A DNA stretch of 35,672 nucleotides from Candidatus Obscuribacter phosphatis (GTDB lineage: Bacteria; Cyanobacteriota; Vampirovibrionia; Obscuribacterales; Obscuribacteraceae): assembly GCA_001899315.1 (NCBI GenBank), contig MOYA01000001.1:2860400-2896071 (forward strand), written 5' to 3'. A program made the position numbers and the translations under genes. The notes beneath the pieces were generated by a model. That model had not been told where the DNA came from. It did not search any database and was given only the letters and a program-made list of their open reading frames with translations. Position 1 is the stretch's first letter. Each line of letters begins with the position of its first letter. Below, in pieces: positions 4,809 through 35,672 of this stretch.

Positions 4809-6158
4809 CTATTTGCTTGCCGTATCAAGCAAGGCACGGGGCAAGCCTTCGGCGACGACTGTATTGAAAGACTCGACAGAAACGATGTCAAACTGGGCAC
4901 CTTCATCGCCAACCATTCTGAGATCCAGTTTTGCCAGTGCTTCAGTGCCATTTCTTTCGTTTCCTATTTGCAAGAAGTTGATTCTTACTTCATCGGGTCT
5001 GACCATCTTGGCTGTGGCTCGGCTGATTACAGCAATCAACTCGCCTTTATCACTGGGTTCACCATCACTAATTACTTCTATGAGTAATTTCTTTGTGGCT
5101 CCCTTACTCTGCTCACGCCTTTCAAAATAGTCATCTAGAATTTGAGACAGGGGTTTGGCCATATATGTTCCCCCGTTCGGAACATTTTTAGAAAAAATAT
5201 CTGGAACAACCGAAAACCCTACATTCTTGAAGATTTGAGAGTTGCTGGAGAAAAGAGCAACAGTGATGCCACTCTTGAAAACAGGAGAAATTTGCGCGGT
5301 GAAGCTAAGCAATTGATCTCGACACCACTGCCAACGGCTAACACCGCCGGGGCAATCGGTTTCGTTCATCGAACCTGACTTATCGATAACAATGGCAATC
5401 TCATAGTTAGACAAAAGACTAAGCTCTTGAGAACTGAGAACTTTGCCCACTATTGGAACTTTAGAGGCAGCAGCAGAAAGAGCGCTGCCAGCATTGCCTA
5501 AAGCCGTGCCGCCCGAGAGTTTGCCAGTGCCGCCCGAAGTGCTTGCTGACGCTGCGCCTGAAAGACTAGTCTTGCTTTTGCTGGTGAGACCTTTCAACAA
5601 ATTGACAGCCTGCGACTGCAGTTCAGGCGAACTTGAAAGCGCGCGCCCAAGCTGACCGACCGCTTGTAAGCCTCGCTTAAGCAAGAGGTCTTCCGAATTA
5701 CCACTACTACTACCAGAGCTATTTGTAGAACTATTTGTAGAACTGGTGGACAAATTGGTCGAACGAGGCGAGGGGCTTGAAGCTGAGGAAAAAACGCTAC
5801 GGTCGTCAAGTGAGAAGAGCCCACCTTCGCCGGTCGGACTAGAGGAAGGCTGGCGCCCCGGATAGGAATTTTGCGCAGACCCCAGCATAGAACCCTGCAT
5901 AGCCCCCTGCATAGATCCCTGAGAATTGCCCTGATAAACCGTGGAGCCGCTGTCAGGGCGGCTTAGGCGAGGCGTGGTTAGGGCACTCTGGCTGACTGAG
6001 CCAGTTAGTTTGAGATCATCAGTGCGTTTGAGACGAGTGGGCGCCACCGGCGGCATTTCATTGCCGGCCCAGACGGCTTGAGCACAGCCCAGAGCAAAGA
6101 AGGAAGCCAGGGCTCTTATCTCAGGCGAGAGTCTCTTGAATCGCTGACCCATATACAT
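4809..6158 (-). CDS. Secreted von Willebrand factor A-domain protein
   Basis: The start at 6158 (with another Met at 6152) is chosen because AGGG lies about 11 bases upstream and the N-terminus then reads as a signal peptide ending AQAVWAGN. The 449-residue precursor has a low-complexity Ser/Thr/Gly linker in its first half. This includes 12-bp-encoded repeats (QGSMQGAM type, DNA about 5885-5935) and TNSSTNSS. A C-terminal vWA domain follows, with MIDAS motif DKSGSM (Asp259, Ser261, Ser263), GGTYMAKPL for the Thr and ISDGEPSD for the second Asp. This predicts divalent-metal-dependent protein binding outside the cytoplasm. It is divergent from the next gene and ends at a shared terminator. Confidence 0.85.
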   Translation of the reverse strand: MYMGQRFKRLSPEIRALASFFALGCAQAVWAGNEMPPVAPTRLKRTDDLKLTGSVSQSALTTPRLSRPDSGSTVYQGNSQGSMQGAMQGSMLGSAQNSYPGRQPSSSPTGEGGLFSLDDRSVFSSASSPSPRSTNLSTSSTNSSTNSSGSSSGNSEDLLLKRGLQAVGQLGRALSSSPELQSQAVNLLKGLTSKSKTSLSGAASASTSGGTGKLSGGTALGNAGSALSAAASKVPIVGKVLSSQELSLLSNYEIAIVIDKSGSMNETDCPGGVSRWQWCRDQLLSFTAQISPVFKSGITVALFSSNSQIFKNVGFSVVPDIFSKNVPNGGTYMAKPLSQILDDYFERREQSKGATKKLLIEVISDGEPSDKGELIAVISRATAKMVRPDEVRINFLQIGNERNGTEALAKLDLRMVGDEGAQFDIVSVESFNTVVAEGLPRALLDTASK

Positions 6159-6308
6159 ATTTATAGCCCTCGCCCTTTGACTGAATCTTATGAATATACA
6201 GCCTGAAGGAAAGTTCCATGTTTTAAAGTGGTCAGTTATGGTAATTTCTTGGTGGTGCTTGAAAATCACCCCAAAATCTAACGGGAAGCACCTGTGACTG
6301 CATATAAG

Positions 6309-6355
6309 TTTGAGATTTGAGATTTAAATTTTGAGATTTGAGATTTGAGGTTTGA
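6309..6355 (+). repeat. Short tandem repeat TTTGAGA upstream of a secreted-protein gene
   Basis: Two pairs of TTTGAGA units flank an AT-rich spacer, and a degenerate fifth unit (TTTGAGG) provides the GAGG ribosome site for the GTG at 6357. It lies in the roughly 200-bp region between divergent genes, where I see no other clear signal. Confidence 0.7.
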
Positions 6356-6356
6356 A

Positions 6357-6893
6357 GTGAATCGTAAGCGACCAATCATCATTATGTCGGCTGTTTTTTC
6401 CGCTTTTCTGACATCTTCATTGATGCAAAACCCTGCTCTCGCTCAAGGCGAACAGCTTGAATTGAAGGGCTATAAAGACAACGATCCGAGCAAACAAGAA
6501 AAGCAAGCAGCCAAGGCAGCCCAGCCTAGCGATGCAGTTCCGGTTCGTCCCCTTTTAGATAACGGTCAATATGTTCCGCCCGATGGCGTCATTGACGGCT
6601 CCAATCTCAAACAGTTTCTCAATTCCGGTCCGGTTATCGATCCCCGCGCCATGGAAGAAGCCTCGATACAGGCTGACAATATGATGCAGATGCCGGCCGA
6701 AGCACCAAACGGCCGCAAACCAAAGAAAAGAAAAGGCTTCTTTGGAGCCATCTCTAGAGGTTGGGAAAACACCTGCAATGCTATTGGTTTTCCAGTGGGC
6801 AAGAACGACGACATCGGAGTGGACGCCAGTCTCTCATCAGACCTGCCTCAAGAAGTGCGCGACGCATACGGCGCCTACAATCCAAACAAGTAG
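6357..6893 (+). CDS. Secreted protein, unknown function
   Basis: The GTG at 6357 is preferred over an upstream TTG (6345) because GAGG lies six bases before it. The 178-residue product has a signal peptide (PIIIMSAVFSAFLTSSLMQ, then NPALAQ). The mature region is Pro/Asn/Gly-rich: DNGQYVPPDGVIDGSNLKQF, a basic stretch GRKPKKRKGFFGAISRGW near residue 130, and a polar tail. No family is recognised; it could be a cell-envelope-associated protein. Its stop codon directly abuts the stop of the convergent TPR gene with no base between. Confidence 0.7.
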   Translation: MNRKRPIIIMSAVFSAFLTSSLMQNPALAQGEQLELKGYKDNDPSKQEKQAAKAAQPSDAVPVRPLLDNGQYVPPDGVIDGSNLKQFLNSGPVIDPRAMEEASIQADNMMQMPAEAPNGRKPKKRKGFFGAISRGWENTCNAIGFPVGKNDDIGVDASLSSDLPQEVRDAYGAYNPNK

Positions 6894-7787
6894 TTATTTG
6901 TTGTAGCAACGGTCGAATTCGCTCAAGGCTTTTTTAGCCTTAGCCAATGACTTAGTATCGCCTTCTTGGGTAAAGAAATGACAGGCATCGCTGAGCACTT
7001 GCCTATAATTGAGGTTTGCTTCAAGTGACCACAAATACTCTTTCTTAACAGCCGCTTTATCACCCAAAGCTTTAAAAGAATCGATGCGCAGCATAATGGC
7101 TTTGCGACGACTGTTGTAATGAGTGACCGTGACAATCTTCAAGACCTTCTCTGTATCTTCAAGAACACCTTTATACTCTTTCTGCTTGTAGCGAAGGGAG
7201 GCGCGAGTGACAAGCAGGTCAATCCAAGTAGGATACCGTTTCAAGCCATCACTCATTGTCGCTTCGGCATCTTTAAGCAAGCCAAGACGTTCTGCCACTT
7301 TCGCTTTCAATAAATAGCTATTGGGCTCTACTTTCAATAATTGATTGGCAGTAGTTGCCACCTGATAAGATTCTTGCAGCGAGCCTTCATCAAGCAAAAG
7401 CTCAGACAAAATCATTTGGGCATAGCCATCATTAGGTGAGAGCGCCACAGCCTTTCTAATAGCTAGCAGCGCTTCCTTGCGCCTATTTAAGTCTTGCAGC
7501 CAAGACGCCTTGGTACGATAAAACGACGCCTCATCAGGCGCCAAACTAATTGCTTTATTTATAGAAGCCAGCGCTTGCTCTGAGCCATCAAAACTATTCT
7601 CCCAAGCTGACTGAGCTTGCTTGGCCAAATTCTGAGCTTGGCTTGATGGTTTGGCTTGCAGACTGCTAAAAAACTGCAAAGACAAAAAAGAAACAAGCAC
7701 AATAACTGAAATTAGATCCAGCCTAGCGCTCCTAGAACAAAGTCTGGCAAGCGAAAATAATGCAGATATAGATTGCACTAAAGACAA
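6894..7787 (-). CDS. Membrane-anchored or exported TPR-repeat protein
   Basis: The 297-residue product starts at a TTG with GGAG seven bases upstream. A hydrophobic segment at about 25-44 (ISVIVLVSFLSLQFF) acts as signal or anchor. The rest consists of helical TPR-like repeats, for example ALASINKAISLAPDEASFYRTKA, with the matching pattern EALLAIRKAVALSPNDGYAQ next to it, then further degenerate copies to about residue 230. TPR arrays mediate protein-protein contacts; no catalytic domain is visible. It ends back-to-back with the convergent gene. Confidence 0.85.
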   Translation of the reverse strand: MSLVQSISALFSLARLCSRSARLDLISVIVLVSFLSLQFFSSLQAKPSSQAQNLAKQAQSAWENSFDGSEQALASINKAISLAPDEASFYRTKASWLQDLNRRKEALLAIRKAVALSPNDGYAQMILSELLLDEGSLQESYQVATTANQLLKVEPNSYLLKAKVAERLGLLKDAEATMSDGLKRYPTWIDLLVTRASLRYKQKEYKGVLEDTEKVLKIVTVTHYNSRRKAIMLRIDSFKALGDKAAVKKEYLWSLEANLNYRQVLSDACHFFTQEGDTKSLAKAKKALSEFDRCYNK

Positions 7788-18562: not shown

Positions 18563-18624
18563 GCAACAAAACAAAGCATGCCTTGTCTATAAGCGCCTCT
18601 TAACCTCGAAGAGGTTTGACTTTA

Positions 18625-18775
18625 TGTGCGCCCAGGTGGGTAGTCTGGCTTTAAGTGCGACTCTTTCGAAACGCTCCTAATTACAGTTGCGGGACAGCGA
18701 TGGATTCACACCATCTTCCCCCACCAGATCTCTCGCTTGTTTTGCCTCGCTTTCAATTCATAGATAGCCAGCGTC
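18625..18775 (-). ncRNA. Cobalamin (AdoCbl) riboswitch upstream of nrdAB
   Basis: Minus-strand RNA shows the conserved aptamer core in order: GGGGGAAGATGGTGTGAATC (starting near 18725), CGCTGTCCCGCAACTGTAAT, then a variable arm, and the B12 box AGCCAGACTACCCACC (18650-18635), which matches most of the consensus. The 5' boundary is approximate because the outer P1/P2 pairing was not resolved by eye. An intrinsic terminator follows before nrdA. Known logic: bound cobalamin turns off the B12-independent reductase when a B12-dependent class II enzyme can work, as reported for Streptomyces nrdABS. Confidence 0.88.
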
Positions 18776-31458: not shown

Positions 31459-32568
31459 ATGAAAGGGCAAAAGTCGAACTTTTCCAAAAAACTGGCAATG
31501 GAGGCATTACTCTGCTTGCTTGTCTTGCCCCAAGCGCTGCCGCAGGTTGCAGCAGCCGAATCATGGGAAAAGTTGGACCGCAAGCTCAAGAGCCAGGTGC
31601 TGCAAATCAACGTCGGTCTAAAAATGAAAGTAAAAGACAGCCTCTGGGTTCAGCTGGCCGATCTTTCACCCAAACACAAATTTCCTGTTTTTTCATCATC
31701 GCTGCAAGACAAAGGCTTTCGTGTAGTCGGCTTTGGCACCTGCTTTCCGGTAAAGACAACCAGCCGTGATAAGACCTATTTTTTGACCAACAAGCATGTG
31801 GTCGATACAGCCGATCAACTAATCAAAGAGTGCCAACTCTTTTATGCAGCCATGAAGCTTTACGCCGAACAGACCGCAGGCTGGGGCGGCAATGCCGACA
31901 ATCGCTTCAAAGAAGTGCTGCAAATAGTTAATATCTCAACCAAGAAAGACCGCACCGAAAGCGAGTTGGCGCAGTATCGCCAAACCGTCAATGAAATCTG
32001 GGATACCTATGAAAAAAATCTTTCCACAAGGGTAGATCCCAAACGCACAGCCTTCAACAAATATCTCAGTCAAGCTTTAGTAAGCTATGAGCTAGGCTAT
32101 TTTATGCACCCGGCTGGTCCAGCCAACCAACCGCCCATGGTGGCAAAGCTTTATAAAAATGCCAAGCCGGAAAACGAACAAGATCAAGATCTAGCCATAC
32201 TAACAGTGGAAAAGACTAATCTAGTGCCGCTTGATTTGGAATCGACACCGCCTTCGGAAGGTCAAGAAATTCAAGTCATAGGCTATCCGATGGCTTCAGA
32301 TCAAATAGATGCAGACTCCAATAAATATTATGCCCCCACCTTCAGCACGGGGCGAGTAAGTCGTGTGGCGCCGCGCATTTTGCAAGTCGATGCGCCAATA
32401 ACAACCGGCAATAGCGGTGGTCCCGTGGTCAATCAAAGAGGCAAAGTCGTGGGCGTGGTGGCAAGGCGCGCCATGTCATCCAGCGGCACCGAATTAACCA
32501 ATTTCGGCGCGGCAATAACAGCTCAAAGAGTGAAAGATTTCGCGCCGGAATTATTCAGCGGCAATTAG
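31459..32568 (+). CDS. Exported trypsin-like serine protease
   Basis: The ATG at 31459 is used (GAGGG eight bases upstream), giving 369 residues with a signal peptide (LAMEALLCLLVLPQALPQ, then VAAAES). The chymotrypsin-fold triad is His113 (FLTNKHVVDTAD), Asp244 (EQDQDLAILTV) and Ser319 (TTGNSGGPVVNQRGKVVGVV). A helical insertion of about 80 residues lies between the His and Asp motifs. No PDZ domain follows, unlike DegP/HtrA. It likely acts in the periplasm or outside the cell; substrates may include the co-encoded lysine-rich secreted protein (inference). Confidence 0.9.
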   Translation: MKGQKSNFSKKLAMEALLCLLVLPQALPQVAAAESWEKLDRKLKSQVLQINVGLKMKVKDSLWVQLADLSPKHKFPVFSSSLQDKGFRVVGFGTCFPVKTTSRDKTYFLTNKHVVDTADQLIKECQLFYAAMKLYAEQTAGWGGNADNRFKEVLQIVNISTKKDRTESELAQYRQTVNEIWDTYEKNLSTRVDPKRTAFNKYLSQALVSYELGYFMHPAGPANQPPMVAKLYKNAKPENEQDQDLAILTVEKTNLVPLDLESTPPSEGQEIQVIGYPMASDQIDADSNKYYAPTFSTGRVSRVAPRILQVDAPITTGNSGGPVVNQRGKVVGVVARRAMSSSGTELTNFGAAITAQRVKDFAPELFSGN

Positions 32569-32607
32569 CCCGATGAGCTTGAATGATATGAATAGATGAG
32601 GGCTTCG

Positions 32608-32805
32608 TTATTGCCTGGCTGTCGATTGAGCTGGGGAAGGGTCATTATTTTCGAATGAGGCATTATCGCGCTGGATTCTCCACATGAAAATCCGATACAC
32701 TTTTCCAGCCATAGAATTGGCAGCCAATGCGTTTTCCATTAGCTTCTGAAAATTCCGCTGAGGGACAAGACTTACTGAGGACTGACACAAGTACGCAACT
32801 GGCAT
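32608..32805 (-). CDS. Possible small protein at the edge of the repeat-rich island
   Basis: A 65-residue frame starting at ATG, 51 bp downstream of the membrane-protein gene on the same strand. Its sequence (NFQKLMENALAANSMAGKVY, then FMWRIQRDNASFENNDPSPA) looks plausible, but there is no ribosome site, no motif, and a stop immediately precedes the ATG. Low-confidence call. Confidence 0.3.
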   Translation of the reverse strand: MPVAYLCQSSVSLVPQRNFQKLMENALAANSMAGKVYRIFMWRIQRDNASFENNDPSPAQSTARQ

Positions 32806-32856
32806 TTATTTCAGAGCAGAGTCCGACGTTTAATTCTGAAAGTTACATACAGGGAG

Positions 32857-33471
32857 TTACTCATTTAGGTGGCGCTCTCTGTGTGGGCCTTCATACCAGA
32901 GAAATCTTCCTGGTTGCTGACACCAAACATTGGAAATGAGAAAAAGTGGTACAAGAATCATTCCAAGCTGGAGTACAACCAAGATCTTTCTTTTCCATGG
33001 CCATTGACTGGCATTAAACCTAGCAAACTTCTGGACTTGATGTGAATCCCAAAAGTATCCGACACCTACAAAAAGCATAAACACCCCGAGAACTAAGCAT
33101 TGTAGACCTGCGGAAAAATATGGCGAATACTCAATAGCGCAGAAGTACATTTCGCAGAAGAACAACAAGAGAGCTGAGACGAAAACGCACAACGATCCGA
33201 ATATTCGCCTGTTTTGCTTTGAGGCTACGTCTGATGAGAGAGAATCAACACTATTGACAGGCGGTACATAGCTATCAAAGAAGAATATGTTAGTTAGAGC
33301 GAGAATCAAGCATATCAGGAAACTAACCAGCCCGGTTTCTGTCGCTTCTCGAAAAGAAGAAGTATGCTCCGTTGCCTCCATATAGAATCTACTATAAATG
33401 CTACAAGTGCTAATACCGGAAAATAAAAGCATTGCAATAGGTATGATGTTTGAAATTTGACTCTTCTTCAT
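32857..33471 (-). CDS. Five-helix membrane protein, unknown function (immunity-like context)
   Basis: A 204-residue protein with hydrophobic segments at about 7-26, 47-66, 90-112, 119-140 and 161-182; no known motif. The codons are more AT-rich and lack the GCC/GGC preference of the main chromosome genes, which suggests transfer. The ATG overlaps the TGA of a short upstream frame (ATGA), a classic coupling arrangement. That frame is the tail linked to the 194-bp repeat. Small orphan membrane proteins placed right after a variable C-terminal coding tail resemble immunity genes, but this remains a hypothesis. Confidence 0.65.
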   Translation of the reverse strand: MKKSQISNIIPIAMLLFSGISTCSIYSRFYMEATEHTSSFREATETGLVSFLICLILALTNIFFFDSYVPPVNSVDSLSSDVASKQNRRIFGSLCVFVSALLLFFCEMYFCAIEYSPYFSAGLQCLVLGVFMLFVGVGYFWDSHQVQKFARFNASQWPWKRKILVVLQLGMILVPLFLISNVWCQQPGRFLWYEGPHRERHLNE

Positions 33472-33551
33472 CTCTGCTGCTCATTCCATTCTTGATACCG
33501 CATCTCTTTGTACCCGGTGTGCCAATAATGAGTGAGATAGATTTGGTTCAA
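33468..33551 (-). pseudogene. 27-codon tail frame: shared core plus unique C-terminus, copy 1
   Basis: From a TTG, the frame encodes LNQIYLTHYWHTG and a unique 14-residue tail (YKEMRYQEWNEQQR), ending at a TGA that overlaps the next gene's ATG. A TAA lies two codons upstream of the TTG. It could be a truncated remnant of the 3' end of a larger gene, or an incidental frame over a repeat edge. Confidence 0.35.
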
Positions 33552-33744
33552 AGTTTAGTGTAGCAAAATCAATCTAGCGAGGTCGAAGTCTCTCGGGACC
33601 ATGGGCAACGACTGGCTGTGGCTTTGCTGTGCGACCAGGAGGGGAAAAGATGCTTCGAGTTGGCAGCTTCGTAATTCTTTAGTTGTCTACCAAACTTGGG
33701 ACAGGTCAGTCCAAACTGTCTCACCCATTATTGGCAAACAGGGC
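33514..33744. repeat. 194-bp direct repeat, copy 1, bounded by inverted ends
   Basis: The block 33518-33711 matches 34651-34844 at about 182 of 194 positions without indels. The left end TGTGCCAATAATGAGTGAGA reappears inverted just beyond the right end (33715-33744, TTGCCAATAATGGGTGAGAC on the minus strand), so copy 1 looks like a roughly 230-bp element with terminal inverted repeats of about 28 bp. The block also ends in GGGACAGGTCAGTC; TGACCTGTCCC recalls insertion-sequence ends. No transposase is encoded, so a MITE-like non-autonomous element is possible. Confidence 0.8.
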
Positions 33745-33751
33745 CTTTTCT

Positions 33752-34294
33752 TCACTTCAAGTATGGGTTTGCTTTGCCGCTCTCGTTTAATTCTTCTGGT
33801 TCTAGCTTGGGAGAGACTTGATTTTTGGTGTGTTTAAGAGCTGAGAACTTGAACATTGCAGTATAACCCTCTTCGACTGCTATGACTCGACCACTTGGAC
33901 CGCTGGTATCAAAAAGGATTCCTACAGCTATATTTGGATCTAAAGGAGCCCCATATACTAGCAAGCGTGCTTGATGGTTTGAGAGCATACGCCTCTGAGT
34001 TTCAGAAGTAACTGGGTTGAATGCATCAAAACCTTCTCCGTCCACATATGCTGTCAAGCCGAGCTGTTCAATTATCTCTGCTTTAGTTTTACCAAGCAGA
34101 AGTTTTGGATGAGCAATAAAATCTGCTATTAATTTCTCCCTATCAAATAAAGCCCAACCTCGCTTAGTGAAACCACTTGTTTTTGGAAAGACATAGCAAT
34201 ACAAGGAATACCCGGCAATCGAGCATACCAAAACAAGAGTAACTAAAATTATCCGACACCACGTCTTTTGCATGCAGTCTCTGACCCCACTCAT
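33752..34294 (-). CDS. Membrane-anchored protein with SmpA/BamE-like domain
   Basis: The frame is open from ATG 34411, but the Met at 34294 places a transmembrane or signal segment (IILVTLVLVCSIAGYSLYCYVF) near the N-terminus, giving 180 residues; no candidate has a well-spaced ribosome site. After the anchor comes LLLGKTKAEIIEQLGLTAYV and later ARLLVYGAPLDPNIAVGILF, the pattern of the small SmpA/OmlA-type alpha-beta fold, with a polar tail. AT-rich codons match its island neighbours. It lies between two copies of the 194-bp repeat and in the same orientation as the other minus-strand island gene. Confidence 0.6.
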   Translation of the reverse strand: MSGVRDCMQKTWCRIILVTLVLVCSIAGYSLYCYVFPKTSGFTKRGWALFDREKLIADFIAHPKLLLGKTKAEIIEQLGLTAYVDGEGFDAFNPVTSETQRRMLSNHQARLLVYGAPLDPNIAVGILFDTSGPSGRVIAVEEGYTAMFKFSALKHTKNQVSPKLEPEELNESGKANPYLK

Positions 34295-34537
34295 TTTCTT
34301 GTACCACATCAAGCGGACAATTTCTGTTCTCGAAATTGCTGAGCGAATTCCGACGTTGCAATTCTTCTCAGCGACCCGTGCGGTCTTATCGTGTTTTAGT
34401 CGTGCCTCCATTCCTCAGTGATTGTGCGAGCTTCAGGGCGTCCTTTGGCACCAGACGAGACGCTCCAAGACTCTCACAACACGCTCTCCAGGCAAACTAA
34501 AATCCACCTCTATCGCCAGGCAATCGCGCGTGCTGAT

Positions 34538-34684
34538 TTATAGAACCTCTTGCTCAATACCAAAGTTGGAAGACTGGTAAAAGTGAATTACTATTTTTAC
34601 CTTTGTTTTGGTAGGCCTGGTGAACTGACAGTTCTTAAGGCTGGCCCCTGCGTGCCAATAGTGTTTGAGACGGATTTGGTTCAA
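34538..34684 (-). pseudogene. 48-codon tail frame: shared core plus unique C-terminus, copy 2
   Basis: The TTG frame encodes LNQIRLKHYWHAG, matching copy 1 at 10 of 13 residues, followed by a different 35-residue tail (starting ASLKNCQFTRPT and ending GIEQEVL). As in copy 1, a stop lies upstream of the TTG. It is followed after about 240 bp by the SmpA-like gene on the same strand. No independent evidence of expression. Confidence 0.35.
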
Positions 34685-34844
34685 AGTTTAGTGTAGCAAA
34701 ATCAATCTAGCGAGGTCGAAGTCTCTCGGAACCATGGGCAACGACTGGCTGTGGCTTTGCTGTGCGACCAGGAGGGAAAAAGATGCTTCGAGTTGGCAGC
34801 TTCGTAATTTATTAGTTGTCTACCAAACCAGGGACAGGTCAGTC
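34651..34844. repeat. 194-bp direct repeat, copy 2
   Basis: Same length as copy 1 with about 12 substitutions, five of them clustered in the left end. The left flank GCCCCTGCGTGCCAATA is shared with copy 3 at the window edge. The inverted right end present in copy 1 is missing; instead GGGACAGGTCA occurs twice (34831 and 34855). Both sharp boundaries indicate an inserted or exchanged unit. Confidence 0.82.
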
Positions 34845-35025
34845 AACTTTTCTTGGGACAGGTCATTTTTGACGAAAGAAGGCTTGCGTGTGCTTTCTAA
34901 CAATGCAGGAAGTGTCAGTTTTCCAATATTTGGATGTGCCAGAAGGAGATTGGTAGAAGTACGTATTTCCAAATATCCGAGACGAACTACTATAAGAGCG
35001 GATAGTTAAAAAAGGTCCTTTGTGT

Positions 35026-35367
35026 ATGAGCGTTTTCAGAAAGAGAAAAATGCAAGTTAATGCATTAGAGAAAAGCCTGTTAATTGGTTTTGGACTGCTT
35101 TTATGTCAAGTGATAATGTGCTTTACGGTGCAAGGTTGTGCTCCAATTAACGAGAAGCTACCAGTCTGGCTGGGGCTAGCAACAGGTATAGCTAGCATTT
35201 TTCTTTTTCTAAAAGAAAACCCCAAAATAGAAACAACAAGAGTTAAAACCTTGTCATTGCTTTGCACTGTTGTTTTTTGCTCAGTGAGTGTTTACACAGC
35301 AAGTGACTATTGGAAAGGTCACTTTGTGAGTCGGCTTATGCTAGATAGTCAAAATAGCGCTGATTAA
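35026..35367 (+). CDS. Three-helix small membrane protein, unknown function
   Basis: The ATG at 35026 (AAGGT ten bases upstream) gives 113 residues with hydrophobic segments at about 16-36, 47-63 and 74-93, a basic N-terminus and a polar end. No family is recognised. It is the only plus-strand gene of the island, flanked by repeat copies 2 and 3, and is followed by a hairpin. AT-rich codon use matches the other island genes. Confidence 0.6.
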   Translation: MSVFRKRKMQVNALEKSLLIGFGLLLCQVIMCFTVQGCAPINEKLPVWLGLATGIASIFLFLKENPKIETTRVKTLSLLCTVVFCSVSVYTASDYWKGHFVSRLMLDSQNSAD

Positions 35368-35374
35368 ATAAGAA

Positions 35375-35404
35375 GGGAAGTGGAGCAGAGTTACTCCACC
35401 TCCC
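35375..35404 (+). terminator. Hairpin downstream of the small membrane-protein gene
   Basis: GGGAAGTGGAG pairs with CTCCACCTCCC over an 8-base loop with one mismatch, starting 7 bp after the stop. No strong T-run follows, so termination efficiency is uncertain. Confidence 0.5.
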
Positions 35405-35437
35405 TATCTCTAGGCTAGAACCCAGATCAACTTTGAA

Positions 35438-35672
35438 TTAGAGGGGTCCAGGATTTTGCGGACAGCCTATGAGGGCAAGAGTAGCTGCACGCGGGGGCAA
35501 GCCGGTTGCAATATATTCTTGAGCTACGCGCCGGGTACAGTTAAACGAACGCTTTGGAGACTGATTCATTCCCATTACTCGGTCAACCATAGGCAGGAAA
35601 GTAGGAACAGTTTGCGCTCCTTCTAGGGTTATCAAAAATGCCTCAGCCCCTGTGTGCCAATAATGAGTGAGA
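35438..35672 (-). CDS. C-terminal part of a protein entering from the right edge (copy 3 tail)
   Basis: Open from the window edge to the TAA at 35438. The first residues (LTHYWHTGA) repeat the core seen at copies 1 and 2. A unique, protein-like tail of about 69 residues follows (AEAFLITLEGAQTVPTFLPM near the front, then CTRRVAQEYIATGLPPRAAT, ending NPGPL). No domain is recognised. The upstream part lies outside the window, so whether this is a full gene cannot be decided; an internal ATG could also start a 65-residue protein. Confidence 0.45.
   Translation of the reverse strand, partial: LTHYWHTGAEAFLITLEGAQTVPTFLPMVDRVMGMNQSPKRSFNCTRRVAQEYIATGLPPRAATLALIGCPQNPGPL
35645..35672. repeat. Start of a third copy of the 194-bp repeat at the window edge
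   Basis: The last 20 bases (35653-35672, TGTGCCAATAATGAGTGAGA) match the left end of copy 1 exactly, and the preceding CCCCTG matches copy 2. The rest of this copy lies beyond the window. Confidence 0.75.

Follow-up and report, generated by a model that had tools for sequence, protein, structure and literature searches.

Repeated blocks among small membrane-protein genes of Candidatus Obscuribacter phosphatis appear to be worn ends of IS3-type insertion sequences

Does a repeated DNA block beside a run of small membrane-protein genes mark the boundaries of a gene exchange system, or is it debris left behind by other mobile elements? The question is raised by the last part of the window, by which we mean the whole 35,672-nucleotide stretch that was analysed (C1:2860400-2896071 of a genome in 8 contigs and 5.49 Mb). 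An earlier note on this DNA had described an island of roughly 1-kb cassettes divided by the block. We conclude with high confidence that this plastic locus has become a graveyard for insertion sequences (ISs) of the IS3 type, and that the block is neither a recombination site nor a cassette boundary. The layout is largely ordinary, because the blocks are worn IS3-type ends piled up where gene content varies between species.

The repeat itself is real and far beyond chance. It had been put at 194 bp and about 94% identity, and it measures 199 bp in two ungapped copies (33513-33711 and 34646-34844) with 93.5% identity between them (blastn, E about 1e-83). Positions 1-25 of the block recur at 96% identity in the final 25 bp of the window (35648-35672), which gives start-to-start spacings of 1133 and 1002 bp. 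These 25 bp had been taken for a third block, and they do match its start, but they are most probably the left end of a full-length IS and not a cassette divider. A genome-wide search returned the full block at the two sites only, an outcome that the earlier note itself had named as counting against its proposal. Partial copies occur at C1:2897723 in the same cluster (positions 6-139) and once on contig C2 (positions 76-196); beyond these, the genome holds only terminal pieces (positions 1-25 or about 151-196). In 59 further genomes from this class, positions 6-129 turned up in one congener and end pieces alone in other family members. The half copy on C2 is located immediately downstream of an RHS-core gene and its 366-aa neighbour and adjoins the left end of an element called IS-C here (L014 2288-6544, C2 about 514.3-518.5 kb). 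We considered whether the block might act as a structured RNA or hairpin site and rejected this, as it has no Rfam match and folds no more stably than its shuffles (z-scores 0.2 to 1.9). The only Rfam match in the window is a cobalamin riboswitch at 18618-18743 (-), which scores above the gathering threshold.

Comparison with related elements shows that two IS3-type ends, one from IS-A and one from IS-B, make up the block as a mosaic. Positions 1 to about 140 correspond to the IS-A left terminal repeat (the first 25-28 bp), leader, ribosome-binding site and start codon, and positions about 147-196 to IS-B's final codons and right terminal repeat. In the block, the layout AGGAGGGGAAAAG-ATG breaks off directly behind the start codon. 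In genome G016, the same terminal repeat and a leader with TTTAGTGTAGC are followed by a ribosome-binding site, an ATG and an IS3-type OrfA, and an identical 26-bp end stands upstream of OrfA and OrfB in Schlesneria (L064). On the evidence of these two ends, which run into OrfA, the left part of copy 1 (33513-33652, +) is assigned to IS-A and ends on its orfA start codon. In three relatives (G013, G011 and G025) the terminal repeat and leader are located at contig ends, the usual place of multicopy ISs, at which assemblies break. The right part of copy 1 (33660-33708, +) comprises the end of IS-B orfB, with its final codons and stop, and the IS-B right terminal repeat GGGACAGGTCA. This part, GGCAGCTTCGTAATTCTTTAGTTGTCTACCAAACTTGGGACAGGTCA, resembles the corresponding end of IS-B, an IS3-family element whose OrfB remnants share that ending at several loci of this genome and of G002 (86-89% identity over about 45 bp). 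One such remnant (L016 6698-7111) matches an IS3 transposase model.

Behind copy 1 lies an inverted IS-A left terminal repeat (33717-33743, -), which aligns over 26-28 bp with the left end of the block and with L064. Copy 2 (34646-34844, +) again joins an IS-A left end to an IS-B right end and is followed by a further IS-B end at 34855-34865. Such fusions may not be unique to the window, given that in G013 (L048) an IS-A left end is followed, as seen by eye, by an IS-B-like stretch. At L016 about 6664-7162 lies a separate IS-B derivative, about 500 bp long, that keeps both ends and has an internal deletion in orfB; similar ends are present at L016 1774 and 5297. The block is best read as a fossil, in two full copies, that joins one IS's left end to a second IS's right end and has lost the two coding bodies. 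How the ends fused and how the block was duplicated is inferred, the origin of the junction itself being unobserved.

Complete copies give IS-A its identity. One on contig C3 (L019 6176-7800, 1,625 bp) has both end types and separate ORFs for OrfA and a 347-aa OrfB. Its OrfB matches NF033516 at 195.9 bits against a cut-off of 160 and rve at 74 bits, while its OrfA reaches 23.0 bits for HTH_Tnp_1, just below the cut-off of 24.1 that the OrfA of L064 passes at 24.6 bits. The leader of the C3 copy differs from that of the block, and this genome yielded no complete IS-A whose leader is exactly that of the block. At the edge of the window, the left end at 35648-35672 (+) runs into a stretch of 1,573 N bases that starts at the window's end and whose far edge is of the right-end type GTCTCAAAGTTGTTGACACGTTCCG; N stretch and far edge lie in L013 3673-5270, the element would reach to about C1:2897669, and it measures about 1,623 bp from tip to tip. 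The same two edges bound a second N stretch in the cluster and a third on contig C4, with lengths of 1,664 and 1,616 bp. The N may mark either an assembly gap or masked sequence. We infer that these stretches hold IS-A, since their length and their two edges agree with a full copy of about 1.62 kb. Target duplications flank the C4 copy (aaat) and the C3 copy (cta) and are lacking at the two cluster copies, as would be expected after rearrangement.

The end signature of this IS group, CCCTSTGTGCCAAT...GAGAC / CGGAACGTGTCAA...GAGAC, recurs in Obscuribacterales, Planctomycetota, Cyanobacteria and Proteobacteria. Named records that share the block's terminal repeat are Candidatus Obscuribacterales/Melainabacteria MAGs and Planctomycetota, and plasmid-borne relatives with the same signature occur in Azospirillum (annotated as an IS3 family transposase) and in Kovacikia, which shows both ends (CCCTCTGTGACAAT... 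and CGGAATGTGTCAAC...). At the first matches in G003 and G010, an IS-A transposase was considered and rejected, as only terminal-repeat-like sequence and unrelated genes are present there. Literature searches found no paper on a group of the IS-A type in Obscuribacter.

Three small genes lie among these remnants. They encode an orphan protein of 204 aa with 5 predicted TM helices (32857-33471, -), a membrane-anchored protein of 173 aa with 1 predicted TM helix (33752-34273, -) and an orphan protein of 115 aa with 3 predicted TM helices (35020-35367, +), as judged from the ORF list and hydropathy. Their GC content of 0.38-0.43, against 0.48-0.51 in the upstream flanking genes, and their two minus-strand and one plus-strand orientations bear out the description of small AT-rich genes in either orientation between repeats. 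None of the three proteins has a Pfam or NCBIfam match above cut-off, and a search of 49 other genomes of the family found no homologue of the 204-aa protein.

A length of 173 aa is the likely one for a protein originally called as 219 aa (33752-34411). The longer call is inflated by the 3' end of an OrfB of the IS3 family, together with a terminal repeat, left by a third element, IS-C (34278-34531, -). This fragment is 90% identical to L013 6012-6252, a match that adjoins an OrfB with HTH_21 and rve domains (6139-6675), and IS-C occurs at about nine loci genome-wide. The single homologue of the 173-aa protein, in G002 at a different location, is 48-52% identical, begins to align near the 173-aa start and adjoins an IS-B end. 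Its dN/dS of about 0.27, a rough ratio given the high dS of 1.6, suggests that the gene pair is under purifying selection. A likeness to SmpA had been proposed for this protein; a PDB sequence search gave no meaningful match, and a single-sequence AlphaFold2 model was unusable (mean pLDDT 39), so that the likeness stays unconfirmed. The three genes look like ordinary variable-region genes.

The locus is a site of gene turnover between related species. Its conserved flanks, a protease gene ending at 32568 and a gene at L013 14647-15465, lie on one contig each in the congeners G001 and G002, where they are 14.7 kb and 8.9 kb apart, versus 14.1 kb here. The DNA of the island interior has no match to the interiors between the same flanks in either congener, and the island's MarR-GNAT and YbaK-like genes sit on another contig in G002. 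Gene content thus differs between related species, in keeping with the proposal of variable cassettes, but the conserved block that was to separate them was not found at the corresponding loci. Also in the island is a DUF1493 gene (acyl-carrier-like, L013 6954-7364), between two inverted full-length IS-A copies. In our reconstruction, IS activity would drive the turnover at this locus: insertion, internal deletion and recombination between ISs have probably fragmented and rearranged this DNA, with the small membrane-protein genes, as genes of a variable region, left between IS fragments.

Several observations count against reading the region as an IS graveyard. Besides the differing leader of the C3 copy and the unobserved origin of the mosaic junction, the N body beside the window is unreadable, so its identity rests on its edges and length. 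Furthermore, the order of block, minus-strand gene and IS-C fragment is seen twice (33513-34531 and L013 5319-6954), a recurrence not predicted by decay alone. What lies inside these two units shares no residual homology, and their common order could be a small-cluster coincidence or the mark of recombination events between copies of an IS. An extension of the latter thought, that IS3-type remnants serve here as homologous-recombination handles for exchanging small membrane-anchored (possibly immunity) genes, with the repeated order as its trace, seems to us quite improbable. The same order, together with the roughly 1-kb spacing and the different genes between copies, would also suit dedicated recombination sites of an integron-like system of gene-cassette exchange. 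We give that idea almost no credence, as the parts of the block are IS ends that include a transposase start and stop codon, the block shows no excess secondary structure and was not found at the locus in congeners, and no integrase was recognised among the ORFs of the cluster. A cassette island built on a dedicated repeat is therefore unsupported, whereas the guess that a mobile-element family is involved was right in substance. It might further be supposed that the block is a working non-autonomous, MITE-like element, moved in trans by the IS-A transposase and seeding copies here, as the fused block is present in more than one place and copy 1 (33513-33743) bears an IS-A terminal repeat at both ends. 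Both of those ends are of the left type, whereas IS-A has distinct left and right terminal repeats; copy 1 has no target-site duplication, copy 2 has no right IS-A repeat, and the two full copies are confined to one cluster and not dispersed. This makes a mobile block highly improbable.

Another proposal is that the island stores polymorphic-toxin immunity genes, whose small membrane proteins protect against the toxins of neighbours while the IS debris merely accompanies them. The island does hold a DUF2750 gene (L013 9180-9510), apparently truncated by the left end of the second IS-A copy, and DUF2750 is listed as Imm16 (PMC3482391). Moreover, two of the five SUKH-1 (PF09346) matches in the genome (L091 and L097; C1:1317405-1317740 and C1:635768-636118) are found no more than about 1.3 kb from IS-C 3' fragments, L097 has in addition a fragment of a deaminase toxin of the BURPS668_1122 type, and the half block on C2 follows an RHS gene. 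Yet none of the three proteins in the window is linked to immunity by a family match, the ORFs of the island include no recognised toxin gene, and ISs and immunity genes both gather in variable regions anyway. We consider such a store unlikely. An immunity role for the small genes themselves is possible and a fair guess, circumstantially supported, because of the DUF2750/Imm16 gene in the island and the SUKH-1 matches near IS-C. To judge from L091 and L097, IS3 debris may mark toxin/immunity tails in this genome.

Reading the region as an IS graveyard removes a false lead, in that what appears by eye to be a cassette system is a mosaic of IS3-type ends. The IS-A end signature should also help others to recognise such debris, and the N stretches that go with it, in draft genomes.

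Among known systems, polymorphic-toxin immunity loci (Zhang et al. 2012, PMC3482391) resemble the island in having small genes in a variable region, with one DUF2750/Imm16 gene nearby, but no toxin gene is recognised beside that gene and the window's proteins match no immunity family. Integron cassette arrays share with the window the alternation of repeats and small genes; unlike theirs, the repeats here are IS ends with no attC-like fold, no integrase is recognised among the cluster ORFs, and the genes lie in both orientations. MITEs and IS deletion derivatives are closer, for the block is short, lacks a coding body and takes its terminal repeats from an IS, but it is a mosaic of two ISs with no target duplication and one copy without the second repeat, whereas a MITE has repeats at both ends, a target duplication and dispersed copies. 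The IS3 family (NF033516; Pfam rve and HTH_Tnp_1) differs in that the window keeps only ends and fragments, and in that the IS-A tips read CCC.../CGG... instead of the TG...CA that is usual in the family without being strictly defining; the ends of IS-B and IS-C begin TGAC. It is nevertheless this family that IS-A resembles in its OrfA/OrfB layout, the DDE integrase core of OrfB, its length of 1.6 kb, its imperfect terminal inverted repeats and the target duplications of 3-4 bp at two of its copies.
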